Source of the DNA: an uncultured Prevotellaceae bacterium
GTDB taxonomy: Bacteria > Bacteroidota > Bacteroidia > Bacteroidales > Muribaculaceae
Direction of reading: 5' to 3'
Assembly: GCA_900316835.1 (NCBI GenBank)
Contig: ONEL01000007.1
Span: forward strand, 1 to 64,000
Length of the DNA stretch: 64,000 nt
Shown here: positions 42,010 to 48,441 of the stretch, piece by piece
Layout: every line of letters begins with the position of its first letter
Numbering within the stretch: the stretch's first letter is position 1
Notes under the pieces: generated by a model
Told to the model about the DNA's origin: nothing
Seen by the model: the letters and a program-made list of their open reading frames with translations, nothing else
Database searches by the model: none
Position numbers and translations under genes: made by a program

Positions 42010-45000
42010 TTAGTTGAAAATATACTTAACACCAATTGCTACGCTCCAGCACTGACCAATGGCATGGTTAGGAGCCCAAGTCTTAGTGTCGCCATTGATA
42101 GCGGCGGGAGTAGAGAACAATGGATAACCCTGTGCGTCAACGCCCTCATACTTGAGAATGCGAGCCTCGCTGCCAATCTCGGGGTTCAGGTACTTGCTCA
42201 CGCCCCAGCTCGAGTTGAAGAAGTTGAGAACGTTCTTCATGTCGAAGCTCAGCTGGATAGTGTGCTTGGTAGAGCCGGCACGGAAGTTGAAGTCGTGCTT
42301 GTAACCCAGGTCGATGCGGTGTACCCATGGGCTGTAAACGCTATAGGCCTCGGCATACTTGCCCTGATGGTTCTTCAGGTAGCTATCGTTGTGAACGAAA
42401 CTCATGAAACGGTCGCGGTCGTCAGCGCTCTTGAAGCGGAACTCGCCAGCCTCAACTTGTGCGTCGGTGGGAACGTAAATTGCATCGTAAGCGTAGCCGT
42501 CGCCGTTCATGTCGTTGGTGGTCATGTAAGAGTAGTTGTAGCCGCCACGCCAGGTCTCATAGATGAGGCTGTAGTGGTTGCCACTGCGGTCGTGCAGTGT
42601 AGCGCTAGCGATGAAGCGGTCGGGGGTAACATACTGCGAGTTGTGCAGCTTGATGTTGTTGGGACCCTCGGTAGTGGGAACATAGGTGAAAGCACTCTCG
42701 GCTGCCGAACCTGGCATACCAGTGATTTCCTTCGACACGGTGTGAGTGTAAGAAGCCATGAGGCTTACCCAGTCGGCAGGCTTAGCGGTTGCCATGAGGT
42801 TAGCGCTCCAGCCGTAGCCCTTGCTAGTGTTCTCGAGGACGAATGCCTTAGTGTTAGTGCGGAATCCTGCAGGATAGATGGGACGGTTGTCAATACCATT
42901 GAAGCGGGCAAAGCCACCCACGTTAGGAATTGACCAGTCGCTGATGGTAACGGCGTTGATAGTCTTGTTGAAGATTGCCTCGGCTGTTACAGTGAATGGG
43001 AACGAAACGGGCAGTGCATAGTCGATAGCAAGTGAAGATTTCCACACCTGTGGCATCTTGAACTTGGGATCTACACCATTAACAGCCGAGGGAACTGTAC
43101 CGTCCTCGGGCTTAACAGTTTGGGGATAACCCATGTCGAAGAGTTTCTGCTGCAGGGCAGCGATAGTTGCATGACCTTCGCTGTCGGTAACGAGACCGCC
43201 GGCAAACTGGTTCATGTCGGTGTTCTTAGCATTGAGCTGTGCTTGGTATTGAACCATACCGCCATTGGTGGGCATGTTGGTGAAGAATACCAGTGGCAGA
43301 CGGCCCGAGAAGAGACCTGTACCACCACGCAACTTGAAGCTCTTGTCGCCAAATACATCATAAACGAAGCCCACGCGTGGCGAGAATGTAACGCTGCTGT
43401 TAGGCCACTTGCCAGTGTCGATGTTGCGAACGTTACCATCTTTGTCGTAGTAGTCAAGTGCAAGGATTTTATTGTTGGTCATGAGGTCCTTGTTGTTGAA
43501 GAAGAGACCGTCGATGCGCAAGCCATAAGTGAGTTTGAACTTTTCGTTAACGTTCCACTCGTCCTGACCATAGATGCCAGCCTTGTTGAATTGTACGCGG
43601 GCGGCTGGATGGGTCTCACCATCGTAGCCGTAGGTCAAGCACACTACCTCGGGAGCGGCGCCATTGATGAAGTCGTCAACGCTAGCGTAGCGGTAGTAAC
43701 CTGTACCGTTGCGCATGTACTGGTTGTCGGCCATTTGGTGCTCGAAGTTGATACCGGCAGTGATTTTGTGGTTTCCGGCATAGTAAGTGATATCGTCCTT
43801 GATGTTCCAGATGGTGTTGTGCACGGCGTTGTTCCAGGTGAAGAGCTCATAACCTAGAGCCATGTAGTTGCCGTTGTTGCCAGTGCCATCCTGGATGTCG
43901 ATGAATGGGAACTCGTTAGAGTTAGTGCCACGCACGTCGTCGAGTTTTGACCAGGTGGCGAGGAACTGGTTAGAGAGATTGTCACCCAAGCGGCTGTTGA
44001 GGTCGAAAGAGAGTGAGTGAACCAGATTCTTCATCGAGTACATAGAGTTGGCAAATATCATTGAGTATTGCGAAGCGCGACCGTAGGACGAGCGAGTGCC
44101 TCCGTCCATTGAGGTTGCGTTGGCGGCGTTCCACACATTATTTTTAGTGTAGTTGTAGCGCAGTGCCAAGTGGTGATCGTTAGTGATGTTCCAGTCGATG
44201 CGGGCAAGCAACTTGTAGTTACTCTCGTCGGCAGGGAAGCTGGTGTATGAACCAGTGTCGTAACCGTACTTATCCATCACGTGTTTTTGAACGCGTTGCA
44301 TGTCGGCGATAGTGGTGCGTGAGAGGTAGTTGTCGGGATCGGCAACTCCGTCCTCTGAGGCGCGCCAGCGGTTGGCAACGGTAGGCACTTTCGACATCTC
44401 ACCATTGACAAAGAAGAACAATTTGTTCTTGATGATGGGACCACCTAGGGTGAAGCCGTAGGTAGTAACACGGTCCTTGGCGCGAGCGCCGGCGATTTGC
44501 TCGCCATCCACAGCGTCGCCACGCATGTTCTCGTTGCGGTGATAGATGTAGGCACTGCCCTTGAAGGTGTTGTTACCACTCTTGGTAATGGCATTTACAC
44601 CACCGCCAATGAAGTTGGTTTGACGCACGTCGTAGGGCGAGATTACCACTTGCATTTCCTCGATAGCATCGAGCGAGATGGGGTTTCCACCACCAGGCAG
44701 GTTGCTGCTAAGACCGAAGTTGTTGTTGAAGTTGGCACCATCCACGGTGAAGTTGGCGGTACGTCCATCGGCACCGGCAAAACTCATTCCGTTGCCTCCA
44801 TAAGGCGAGAGGCGAGTAACGTCGGTGATACTGCGAGTTACAGTAGGCAGGCTGGTAATCTGCACGTTGGTGATGTTGGTCGAGGCACCAGTTTTCTCAG
44901 TAGCGAATTTAGACCCTGAGCCTAGCACAACCACCTCTTCGAGCTGATTAGCGTCGGCACTCATCTGCACTGGCAAGTTGTAGGTCTCACCAAGTGAGAG

Positions 45001-45288
45001 TGCGATTTCGGTCATCACCTTGGTTTTGTAACCGATGTAAGACACTGTAGTGGTGTAAGGACCGCCGGTACGCATACCCTGAATGTTGAAACGTCCATCC
45101 AGGTTGGTAACGGCATTGTACTCAGTGCCCGAGGGCATGTGTACAGCTTTTACCACTGCGCCAATGAGTGGCTCATTAGCTTCGTCGGTGATTACACCCG
45201 TCATCGACGAGGTTGTAATCTGCGCATTCAATGACATTGCCGCACAGAGCAACATCATCAACGTTGATAAGTAAAATCTTTTAAGCAT
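42010..45288 (-). CDS. TonB-dependent receptor (Oar-like) with carboxypeptidase-like N-terminal domain
   Basis: A 1092-residue outer-membrane protein. After the signal peptide (MLKRFYLSTLMMLLCAAMSLNA) comes a carboxypeptidase-regulatory-like domain (~25-105, GVITDEANEPLIGAVVKAV), then a plug domain (~110-240; LEEVVVLGSG, a TSLPTVTRSITDVTRLSPYGG segment) and a C-terminal barrel of ~22 strands ending in a short SVAIGVKYIFN. The Oar-like subtype is suggested by DGANFNNNFGLSSNLPGGGNPISLDAIEE-type text (key residues NFG, LPGG, PISLDAIEE, ~183-210). It imports a large substrate with TonB energy, or transports a peptide/protein. Its partner is the lipoprotein gene 23 bp downstream. Confidence 0.92.
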   Translation of the reverse strand: MLKRFYLSTLMMLLCAAMSLNAQITTSSMTGVITDEANEPLIGAVVKAVHMPSGTEYNAVTNLDGRFNIQGMRTGGPYTTTVSYIGYKTKVMTEIALSLGETYNLPVQMSADANQLEEVVVLGSGSKFATEKTGASTNITNVQITSLPTVTRSITDVTRLSPYGGNGMSFAGADGRTANFTVDGANFNNNFGLSSNLPGGGNPISLDAIEEMQVVISPYDVRQTNFIGGGVNAITKSGNNTFKGSAYIYHRNENMRGDAVDGEQIAGARAKDRVTTYGFTLGGPIIKNKLFFFVNGEMSKVPTVANRWRASEDGVADPDNYLSRTTIADMQRVQKHVMDKYGYDTGSYTSFPADESNYKLLARIDWNITNDHHLALRYNYTKNNVWNAANATSMDGGTRSSYGRASQYSMIFANSMYSMKNLVHSLSFDLNSRLGDNLSNQFLATWSKLDDVRGTNSNEFPFIDIQDGTGNNGNYMALGYELFTWNNAVHNTIWNIKDDITYYAGNHKITAGINFEHQMADNQYMRNGTGYYRYASVDDFINGAAPEVVCLTYGYDGETHPAARVQFNKAGIYGQDEWNVNEKFKLTYGLRIDGLFFNNKDLMTNNKILALDYYDKDGNVRNIDTGKWPNSSVTFSPRVGFVYDVFGDKSFKLRGGTGLFSGRLPLVFFTNMPTNGGMVQYQAQLNAKNTDMNQFAGGLVTDSEGHATIAALQQKLFDMGYPQTVKPEDGTVPSAVNGVDPKFKMPQVWKSSLAIDYALPVSFPFTVTAEAIFNKTINAVTISDWSIPNVGGFARFNGIDNRPIYPAGFRTNTKAFVLENTSKGYGWSANLMATAKPADWVSLMASYTHTVSKEITGMPGSAAESAFTYVPTTEGPNNIKLHNSQYVTPDRFIASATLHDRSGNHYSLIYETWRGGYNYSYMTTNDMNGDGYAYDAIYVPTDAQVEAGEFRFKSADDRDRFMSFVHNDSYLKNHQGKYAEAYSVYSPWVHRIDLGYKHDFNFRAGSTKHTIQLSFDMKNVLNFFNSSWGVSKYLNPEIGSEARILKYEGVDAQGYPLFSTPAAINGDTKTWAPNHAIGQCWSVAIGVKYIFN

Positions 45289-45359
45289 AAAATTTGAAAA
45301 TTAATAAAAAATTAATTGCAATAAATGTAATTTTAAGTTCATTCACAGAGTGTCGTGGT

Positions 45360-45552
45360 TTTATACAAAAAAACGCACACCGTTATTAGACAATGTGTTC
45401 TAATAGCGGTGCGCGGTCTCTATACTCTAAGCTCACAGTCTTTACACTTGGCGATATCAAGTCCCCAGCAGTATAAGGCTGACTGCTAGGGTAGTTACCT
45501 TCAAATATTAAGTACTGTAATAGAGCCATTTGTTGGATTATGCACAAAATTA
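45360..45552 (-). ncRNA. Candidate structured non-coding RNA, 6S-like shape
   Basis: On the minus strand a TACCTTTG -7 box (45558-45565) would start a transcript near 45552; a strong terminator ends it near 45367. In between, GGCTCTAT (from 45521 downward) can pair with ATAGAGACC (to 45415); ACAGT/ACTGT pairs inside; CCCTAGCAGT/ACTGCTGGGG caps the rod; and an ACTTG/CAAGT hairpin lies in the bubble on the 3' side. A rod with a central bubble and 3'-side hairpin is the 6S RNA layout. It could also be a leader with a terminator for the receptor gene, whose ATG lies ~75 bp past the terminator. Confidence 0.5.
45367..45414 (-). terminator. Strong terminator at the end of the RNA candidate
   Basis: GCGCACCGCTATTAGA/TCTAATAACGGTGTGCG (one wobble and one mismatch) with a short loop is followed on the minus strand by TTTTTTT. 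It faces the receptor gene at 45288 from upstream. Confidence 0.85.
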
Positions 45553-45557
45553 CGGTG

Positions 45558-45565
45558 CAAAGGTA
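45558..45565 (-). promoter_or_regulatory. -7 box (TACCTTTG) of the RNA candidate
   Basis: A minus-strand TACCTTTG with a T-run ending TTTC about 17 bp upstream. The transcript would begin near 45552. Confidence 0.55.
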
Positions 45566-45942
45566 TTGATATTTTCTCAATTGAAAAAAACTTCCAGCAA
45601 CAAGTTTTCAACATTAACCATTTTAACAAAAAGAGTGGTAATGGGCGTGTGTTGTTTATGGGCTGATTTACAGTGCCCTATGGTGAAAAGATGTTGTCGA
45701 TTTGTTAAATTCTTGCTTGAAATAACACTTTTCTCAGTGTGTTATGTTATTTCTTGTGATGAAATATATTTAGTCTTTTTTTATATTATTTTAATAAGTT
45801 GTGTAATGTGTTGATTTTCTTGTGGTTACTTCTTTTATGGGGTGTACTGTCATAAAAAAAGCTTTATTTTTTTGAAACATTTTGCCACCTTTGTGCGTCT
45901 AATGTGCAAAAACATTGCATCATACTTGAAAAAATAGAGAAA
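45566..45942. other. Intergenic region ahead of the plus-strand barrel gene
   Basis: No gene seen. Short open frames here are AT-rich and lack coding character. A degenerate -7 box CACCTTTG lies ~50 bp before the next ATG. Confidence 0.4.
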
Positions 45943-48441
45943 ATGAAGAAGTTTACAGCGTTTTTATTGATGATTGCATGCTCAATGGCAGCTCTTGCCC
46001 AGAGTTATAGCGTGCAATGCCTTGTGAACGACAGTGAAGGCGAGGGAGTACCCTTTGCGACAATCTACGTTTATAACAGTAACGACACCGCGACGGTAAT
46101 ATCAAGTGGCGTGAGCGATGCCTTTGGTAAGGTGAATCACAGCATCTCCAAGCCGGGAAGCTATGTGCTTAAGGTCAACTTCGTGGGAATGACCGAGGAG
46201 AAGCGAAACTTTGAGGTGTCGAAATCTCAACCAACATCTCAGTTGGGAACTATAGTGTTATCAACTTCGGCCACTATGCTTAAAGAGGTGGTGGTGAGTA
46301 CACAGCGCCAACTTGTCAAGACTGAGATCGACCGCCTGAGCTATGACGTGCAGGCCGATGCCGATAGCAAGACTAACAACGTGCTCGACATGCTCAAGAA
46401 AGTGCCCATGGTCACAGTCGACGGCCAGGATGATATTCGTGTGAAAGGCACTACTTCATTCAAAGTGTACCGCAACGGTCACCCCGACCCCGCACTCAGC
46501 GGACAGAACATGAAGGAGATACTCAAGGCGGTGCCGGCGAGCATGATTAAAAAAATTGAGGTGATTACCGACCCTGGAGCAAAATATGACGCCGAGGGCA
46601 CAAGCGCCATCCTCAACATTGTGATGGCCGACTTTGGAGGTGGCGGTGGAGCCACCATGAATGGTGTGACCGGCACTGTGGGCGCCGGCGTGAACAACAC
46701 CGGCAGCATTAATGGCAACGCTAACATCACCGCTCAGGTCAATAAGGTGGTGGCATCACTTAACTACGGCTATCATGGACAGAACCGTCACGGCTCTCAC
46801 AACCTGAGCGAGAGCGAGTACACCTATGCCAACACAGGCAACGTGCTCAGCACCGACAACGACTCCCGTGCCAGCGTCAATGTACACTACGGCGAGCTCA
46901 GCGCCAGTTGGGAACCCGACACCATCAACCTGGTGTCGCTCTCGTTTGGTGGCTTCTACTACGACTATCATGGCGACGGTATCAACCATGCCCGCATGAC
47001 CGACGCAAGCGGTAACGTCCTGTATCGCTACACTACCAATGGTCACGCGCCCAAGGGCGACTTCTACGACCTGCATGGGCGCCTCGACTATCAGCGCAAG
47101 TTGCGTCACCCAGGCGAACTGCTCACATTGAGCTATATGCTCTCGACTAACCACAACGCGGCTAAGACCATCTCCACCTTCAGCGACATGCTCAACTGCC
47201 CGTTCCCCTACACCGGGCAAACCAACGACACCAAGGAGAACTTTGCCGAGCACACTTTCCAGCTCGACTGGACACGCCCCTTTGCCAAGTATCACCAGAT
47301 TGAAACTGGTGTAAAATATATCAACCGCCTCAACAAGAGCGAGGCGGCATTCGACTACACTGGCACGCCCGAGATGAACAACACCACGCTCTTCAACCAT
47401 CGCACTCATGTGGCTGCCGCCTATCTGAGCTATCGCTTCAGCAAGAACAACTGGACTACTCGCGCCGGACTGCGCTACGAGTACAGTCGCCTCAACGCCG
47501 AGTTCCCCGATGGCAAGCAAGAGAACTACCATCGCAACCTTAGCGACCTGGTGCCCGACCTGAGCGTGGAATATAAGTTTGACTGGGCGCACAGTCTCAA
47601 GATCAACTACTCGACAACCATTCAGCGACCTGGCATCAGCTATCTGAATCCAGCCGTTGACGAGAGCCCAACCAGTCGCTCATTTGGCAATCCCCACCTG
47701 AGCAGCTCACGCAACCACAGCATAACACTGACCTATATGCAGATAGGCTCTAAGCTCACTTTCAGCCTTAGTCCAAGCATCTCGTTCAGCACTAATCAAA
47801 TTACTGGCGTGCAATACACCGAGGGCGACATCTTCGTCTCGACCTATGCTAATACCCTCAAGAGTCGCAATCTTGGGCTGAGCGGATTCATGCAGTGGAC
47901 CATCAGCAAGAATACCAGTTTTACCTTCAATGGCAACGTGGGCCACAGTCGCTACAAGAGCGAAGAACTGGGCCTGGAGAACAAGCGATGGAACTCATTC
48001 TTCTATGCCCAACTTAACCAGCAGCTGCCATGGAAGCTGCGCCTGAGCGTGAGCGGTGGCGAGTGGAGTGGCGGCATCAGCGGTCTTTATGGCTATTACA
48101 CCGGTAGCTGGTTCTACAACCTGGGCTTGCAGCGCTCGTTCCTCAAGGAGGACCGACTCACTGTGCGCCTGAGTGCCGACAACTTCCTCAATTCGAGCAA
48201 GTTCAATACCATGAAGAGCTACATCAGTCAGGGCGATTACACCGGCTGGAGCAAGAATAAATGGCTATCGCGCGGATTCCGCATTAGCTTCAGCTACCGT
48301 TTTGGCTCGCTCAAGGCCCATGTTAAGCGCACCGACAAGACCATCGAGAACAACGACGTGGTGGGCGGCTCGCAGCAGGGCGGAGCTGGTGGCTCCGGAG
48401 GCACCGGTGGCTCTGGTGGTCAGCAAGGGACCGGGATGTAG
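45943..48441 (+). CDS. Outer-membrane beta-barrel receptor (TonB-dependent-like) with Gly-rich tail
   Basis: An 832-residue protein starting at the ATG of MKKFTAFLLMIACSMAALAQ; the in-frame ATG 39 bp upstream would spoil the signal peptide. A carboxypeptidase-like domain (~20-105) and a plug (~110-210; LKEVVVSTQRQLVKTEIDRL, VLDMLKKVPMVTVDGQ, KIEVITDPGAKYDAEGTSAI) lead into an OMP_b-brl_3-type barrel to ~805 (GFRISFSYRFGSL). Past the barrel, the last ~28 residues are almost only Gly, Ser and Gln, an odd extension for this family, whose proteins normally end at the last strand. The substrate is unknown. It is divergent from the Oar-like receptor gene. Confidence 0.9.
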   Translation: MKKFTAFLLMIACSMAALAQSYSVQCLVNDSEGEGVPFATIYVYNSNDTATVISSGVSDAFGKVNHSISKPGSYVLKVNFVGMTEEKRNFEVSKSQPTSQLGTIVLSTSATMLKEVVVSTQRQLVKTEIDRLSYDVQADADSKTNNVLDMLKKVPMVTVDGQDDIRVKGTTSFKVYRNGHPDPALSGQNMKEILKAVPASMIKKIEVITDPGAKYDAEGTSAILNIVMADFGGGGGATMNGVTGTVGAGVNNTGSINGNANITAQVNKVVASLNYGYHGQNRHGSHNLSESEYTYANTGNVLSTDNDSRASVNVHYGELSASWEPDTINLVSLSFGGFYYDYHGDGINHARMTDASGNVLYRYTTNGHAPKGDFYDLHGRLDYQRKLRHPGELLTLSYMLSTNHNAAKTISTFSDMLNCPFPYTGQTNDTKENFAEHTFQLDWTRPFAKYHQIETGVKYINRLNKSEAAFDYTGTPEMNNTTLFNHRTHVAAAYLSYRFSKNNWTTRAGLRYEYSRLNAEFPDGKQENYHRNLSDLVPDLSVEYKFDWAHSLKINYSTTIQRPGISYLNPAVDESPTSRSFGNPHLSSSRNHSITLTYMQIGSKLTFSLSPSISFSTNQITGVQYTEGDIFVSTYANTLKSRNLGLSGFMQWTISKNTSFTFNGNVGHSRYKSEELGLENKRWNSFFYAQLNQQLPWKLRLSVSGGEWSGGISGLYGYYTGSWFYNLGLQRSFLKEDRLTVRLSADNFLNSSKFNTMKSYISQGDYTGWSKNKWLSRGFRISFSYRFGSLKAHVKRTDKTIENNDVVGGSQQGGAGGSGGTGGSGGQQGTGM

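Follow-up and report, generated by a model that had tools for sequence, protein, structure and literature searches.

Leader-peptide attenuation is a textbook form of control for biosynthesis genes in Proteobacteria. In E. coli a terminator is repressed when ribosomes are close to a stop codon, and pyrBI has its terminator inside a 135-bp leader gene; in amino-acid attenuators more than 20 bp separate the leader gene from the terminator (these statements come from the available part of PMC4824070). Tight coupling is needed to prevent termination at pyrBI, according to the accessible part of PMC5021804. For Bacteroides thetaiotaomicron, the part of PMC7366714 available describes short ORFs in long 5' UTRs as reminiscent of attenuating leader peptides, and leaves the validation of its example, BT_4401, to future work. 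Beyond this we found little on leader-peptide attenuation in Bacteroidota, and no account of the leader element analysed here, in the literature searched, outside which lay most subscription papers and all preprints. The element resembles the B. thetaiotaomicron case as far as that case is described there, and our analysis adds comparative evidence for one such module.

The leader is on the minus strand of the window, by which we mean the whole 64,000-nucleotide stretch of DNA that was analysed. Its promoter box, TACCTTTG (45558..45565), which we take to be of the Bacteroidales -7 type on the basis of the consensus TAnnTTTG, is kept in all 17 sequences of the closest group of relatives (group A, defined below), and transcription is likely to start downstream of it, near 45550. 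A leader ORF of 144 bp, 47 codons followed by TAA (MALLQYLIFEGNYPSSQPYTAGDLISPSVKTVSLEYRDRAPLLEHIV), occupies 45386..45529. In the minimum-energy fold most of it belongs to a rod (45415..45527), and its stop codon (45388-45386) falls within the hairpin of an intrinsic terminator (45367..45414, with arms at 45414-45399 and 45390-45374 and seven T at 45373-45367). The candidate regulated gene, at 42010..45288 on the same strand, encodes a TonB-type outer-membrane receptor of 1092 aa with CarboxypepD_reg and OMP_b-brl_4 domains, and its ATG, at 45288, is about 79 nt beyond the terminator T run. The original prediction saw here a 6S-like or other stand-alone RNA and offered an attenuator, with the terminator facing the receptor, as a second reading. 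On rereading the sequence, the box, the pairable RNA (about 150 nt) and the strong terminator were all found in that order on the minus strand; the leader ORF at 45529-45386 had been overlooked. A second TonB-type outer-membrane protein (OMP_b-brl_3) is encoded divergently at 45904-48441 of the window. The gene upstream of the leader and receptor is not constant between genomes, and elsewhere the same place is held by what are presumably, from their sequences, FolD, an MBL-fold ribonuclease-Z-like gene or others.

A search with the receptor (E<=1e-150) found it in 76 of 101 genomes of the same genus. Upstream DNA was taken from 68 of these, the other eight being mostly partial or contig-edge matches, and one stretch (L026) that ends at the gene was dropped, which left 67 readable stretches. 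Seventeen form group A, to which the window belongs, 34 form the more distant group B and 16 fall in neither. The receptor-bearing contigs are labelled uncultured Muribaculaceae, Prevotellaceae, Porphyromonadaceae or Bacteroidales, and several are from rumen or other animal gut. The group-A peptide was found in 17 of the 101 genomes, one copy in each, and in these 17 genomes the element in its group-A form was located only before one TonB-type receptor gene. A promoter box 10-110 nt before the receptor ATG occurs in 3 of the 67 stretches, where 5.0 are expected by chance; outside the genus the same box precedes 40 of 59 receptor genes (4.7 expected). Because the genus has no receptor-proximal box beyond chance, the leader promoter looks like the promoter of the receptor, and the receptor mRNA, having no nearer box, should have to pass the terminator. 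This ties the RNA to a protein gene and speaks against the stand-alone transcription unit first proposed. As in pyrBI, the structural gene would then be read only through the terminator, judging by the sequence. In many members of the genus the receptor match is split in two near residue 690 of the query, which would fit an insertion at that point.

An alignment of the relatives over the stretch between promoter and receptor revealed, at a constant spacing downstream of the box, an ATG followed by an open frame. Every group-A leader has an ATG 35-38 nt from the box start, an ORF of 39-47 codons and a stop codon within the terminator hairpin (17/17), and the other two frames are open as far as the hairpin in 0/17 and 2/17. 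The leader frame is open into the hairpin in all 34 group-B leaders, themselves chosen by a peptide pattern, and the other frames in one and none; the start codons, 28-44 nt after the box, are ATG (20), GTG (11) and TTG (3). Their stop codon is within the hairpin in three and beyond it in 31, five of which have no stop before the read stretch ends just inside the receptor gene. The ratio pN/pS is 0.62 in the leader frame of group A (0.84 and 1.12 in the other forward frames) and 0.36 in that of group B (1.22 and 1.17). The group-B set for this analysis, from which 2 of 31 rows were dropped for a one-codon insertion, was selected with a peptide anchor that required 25 or more open codons, and its lack of stops is therefore not independent evidence. 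Among the reverse frames one in group B is similar (0.40) and two in group A reach 0.72, as mirrored frames can give. Third codon positions are the most variable in both groups (p 0.025 in A, p 0.00075 in B). Group-B peptides share the core I-P-F-x-I-T-C-S-G-E-A-A-S-Q-F-Y-N-P-L-Q; 19 of these peptides are included in one alignment (A5), and 33 of the 34, together with 3 of the 11 second copies described below, in another (A6). In group A, F-x-I-F and P-G-S-Q recur. The C-terminal half of the leader product differs in length, sequence and frame. No similarity was detected between A and B peptides, and a shared register of F-x-I and S-Q-x-Y seen by eye was rejected when a profile comparison gave it no support.

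The RNA is also structured. The folding energy of the segment 45360-45552 is -67.9 kcal/mol, whereas dinucleotide-shuffled versions give -41.8 +/- 4.4 (z -5.9). Since none of 200 shuffles is as stable, its pairing is beyond chance, as had been proposed. The rod is closed by GGCTCTAT (45527-45520) with ATAGAGACC (45423-45415), followed by an inner helix of ACAGT (45518-45514) with ACTGT (45439-45435) and an inner bubble, and is capped by an apical hairpin inside the leader ORF (45463..45491), CCCTAGCAGT, a 9-nt loop and ACTGCTGGGG. These three helices are those of the original prediction; its small 3'-side ACTTG/CAAGT hairpin is not formed, CAAGT pairing instead with the 5'-strand AATATTTG in the minimum-energy fold. 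Pairing in group A is stronger when both strands come from one leader than when they come from two different ones (-19.2 versus -15.5 kcal/mol; 0/20,000 permutations as good), and three control stretches put to the same test gave no difference (p 0.44, 0.95, 0.27). The expected covariation was thus seen between the rod strands of group A; the corresponding test was not significant in group B (p 0.13), where several pairs of the terminator stem have changes on both sides. Mapped column by column, only 8-17 of the window's 28 rod pairs are kept in the other 16 group-A sequences, which at first looked like disproof; the rod emerged when the sequences were folded one by one and cognate strands were compared. 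This suggests that the shape of the rod persists and its register moves. Each of the 17 group-A sequences forms 8-10 of the 10 apical-hairpin pairs, with covariation measures not clearly above those of shuffles. The natural sequence folds more strongly than its synonymous recodings in 17/17 group-A leaders (mean z -2.0) and 33/34 group-B leaders (mean z -1.3). With the codon signal, this indicates that the RNA seems to have been shaped both as code and as structure.

A covariance model of group B found, besides the receptor copies, 11 complete copies and one fragment, as well as three weak opposite-strand matches that lie over receptor copies; 3 of the 11 had contributed to the model. All 11 second copies (L168-L170, L172-L179), which come from 11 genomes, have the promoter box, an ORF of 37-43 codons and a stop in the terminator. 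Ten of them are followed, 60-130 nt downstream, by the start of a gene whose secreted product has a dockerin-like stretch; the gene call at L172 is less certain, and the listed start at L177 is an upstream one. DUF5689 was found in both of the second-copy proteins that were scanned. The peptides of these leaders vary widely, are mostly unrelated and show no third-position signal (p 0.38), which suggests that the layout has been kept and the peptide sequence has not. Because a conserved leader ORF runs into the terminator of a receptor gene and the arrangement recurs at a second gene, for a secreted protein, the coupling of transcription to translation can be put to a direct test in this phylum. 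The fragment (L180:457-556, genome G007) is a 100-nt piece of group-B leader with neither promoter box nor adjoining gene, and is possibly a decayed copy. In the window's own genome (809,912 bases, window included, both strands), 44 terminators precede a gene start, six of these have an upstream box and two also have an ORF, with no second locus that has the stop-in-terminator plan. The DUF5689 gene of this genome (C22) has no box within 330 nt upstream.

We think it rather likely that the leader is a cis-acting, translation-coupled transcription attenuator of the receptor gene, working through ribosome occlusion. On the best reading this attenuator would be genus-specific, pyrBI-like and housed in a 6S-like rod. 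The supposed stand-alone RNA is then most likely the start of the receptor's own message, and the evidence favours the second reading of the original prediction. RNA polymerase would start at TACCTTTG and transcribe in turn a short 5' UTR, the 47-codon leader ORF in the rod, the terminator and the receptor gene. If no ribosome were close behind, the terminator would form and transcription would stop after about 180 nt, leaving a short RNA. A leader ribosome right behind the polymerase would cover the 5' arm of the terminator and block the hairpin, and the receptor would be transcribed. The sequences themselves show the promoter box, the ORF, its overlap with the terminator, the absence of a further promoter box and the conserved pairing; from there we infer that the ORF is translated, and that a ribosome on it probably decides whether the receptor is made. 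The rod would probably slow the polymerase or the ribosome and so couple or uncouple the two.

The likeness to pyrBI and its leader gene pyrL, as far as the available parts of the two E. coli papers describe them, is in a leader ORF of similar size (135 bp at pyrBI, 144 bp here) that lies over an intrinsic terminator, as it does in 17/17 group-A leaders, 34/34 group-B leaders and 11/11 second copies, and in that a ribosome translating right after the polymerase should keep the terminator from acting. This layout, unlike that of amino-acid attenuators, and the lack of an antiterminator favour occlusion of the terminator by a ribosome. However, the present locus belongs to another phylum, serves a surface receptor gene and has a structured rod within the ORF, and the usual position of the stop is inside the hairpin in group A and past it in group B. 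The pause at pyrBI is UTP-sensitive, whereas in this leader no pyrBI-like or UTP-linked pause sequence was identified, and the rod is a candidate for that part. Among translation-coupled attenuators it would also stand out by the kind of gene, for which the papers searched gave no example of this control. Several observations count against the attenuator. Sixteen of the 67 stretches are in neither group, eight of them with an ORF after a box and three (L031, L032, L035) with the box at about -124 and a shorter leader that has no ORF after it; these three may have lost the attenuator or never gained it and may serve as natural controls. Most group-B ORFs (31/34) end beyond the hairpin, the plan occurs at one locus in about 0.81 Mb of the window's genome, and the second copies lack a codon signal.

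A leader ORF and a terminator in the 5' leader are also what trp/his attenuators have, and the order of rod and then terminator, with the ORF in the first strand, would suit a trp-like device in which a stalled ribosome frees a rod strand to pair with the 5' arm of the terminator. Pairing of the leader strands with that arm, however, does not exceed that of shuffled strands (mean z +0.8, +0.1, +0.6), and none of the 17 group-A leaders is below z -2. The peptides contain no run of one amino acid's codons, and the stop codon is within the terminator, where the amino-acid attenuators described in the available part of PMC4824070 keep the two more than 20 bp apart. A trp/his-type attenuator was therefore rejected, both the mutually exclusive antiterminator and the regulatory codon run being absent, and we regard it as highly improbable; the lack of antiterminator pairing fits ribosome occlusion. 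A signal-sensing leader peptide, whose nascent chain would stall the ribosome so that the stall site sets termination, is possible but on balance unlikely. The purifying selection on the group-B peptide, with its conserved core, and the motifs that recur in group A argue for it; the lack of similarity between A and B peptides, the wide variation among second-copy peptides, the constraint that RNA pairing places on the same bases and the absence, in the scans made, of any Pfam or NCBIfam family scoring over the cut-off argue against it. More speculatively, and we hold this too to be unlikely, a family of sensing leader peptides in a 6S-like rod may control surface receptors and secreted dockerin/DUF5689 proteins in one genus of gut Bacteroidales. 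Nascent peptide and rod would jointly respond to translation state, a ligand or secretion stress as the signal, and a second gene would have received a re-coded copy of the module. The coding signal in pN/pS and third positions would also be expected if the ORF were a small protein gene that simply ends in an ordinary terminator and the receptor were transcribed from an unrecognised promoter. We consider this improbable, given the variable C-terminal half of the product, the absence of a protein family above cut-off and the association with the receptor; nor would a protein gene need its stop codon within the terminator (17/17, and 11/11 second copies).

The stand-alone reading, in which a 6S-like or other trans-acting RNA carries the ORF by accident, has in its favour a rod of closing stem, bubble and apical hairpin whose strands covary in group A and whose folding exceeds that of synonymous recodings, and the length and promoter-to-terminator layout are also those of 6S and 6S-Flavo RNAs (RF00013, RF01685). 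Neither of these models matched in the window or its own genome. RF00013 had no match in 21 genomes, and RF01685, over 61 genomes, gave four matches below cut-off and none in the genus. In the interval 45250-45650 the other Rfam families, Bacteroidales-1 included, gave only microRNA, snoRNA and sRNA hits that fall well short of the gathering scores, so the Rfam search proposed originally found no family at the locus that reaches its gathering score. The 6S models are insensitive in this order, and because they match there so rarely the absent match is weak evidence. Unlike a 6S RNA, though, the leader has one protein gene attached and contains a frame-conserved ORF. Nor does it look like a self-standing transcription unit, the group-A form being always before the receptor, a protein gene which has no other promoter box. 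Moreover, the A and B leaders are very different within one genus, which a housekeeping RNA would presumably not be. On present evidence it is not a 6S RNA, and a trans-acting role seems quite unlikely. The earlier interpretation as a whole is thus partly supported: as the outline of the rod is real and covaries in close relatives, 'structured' was correct and '6S' is a resemblance only. A coding leader can take on a rod shape resembling that of 6S RNA. The four RF01685 matches (L164-L167), in other genomes of the order, score 33-43 bits (gathering score 85) and are candidates for the true 6S RNA of the order.
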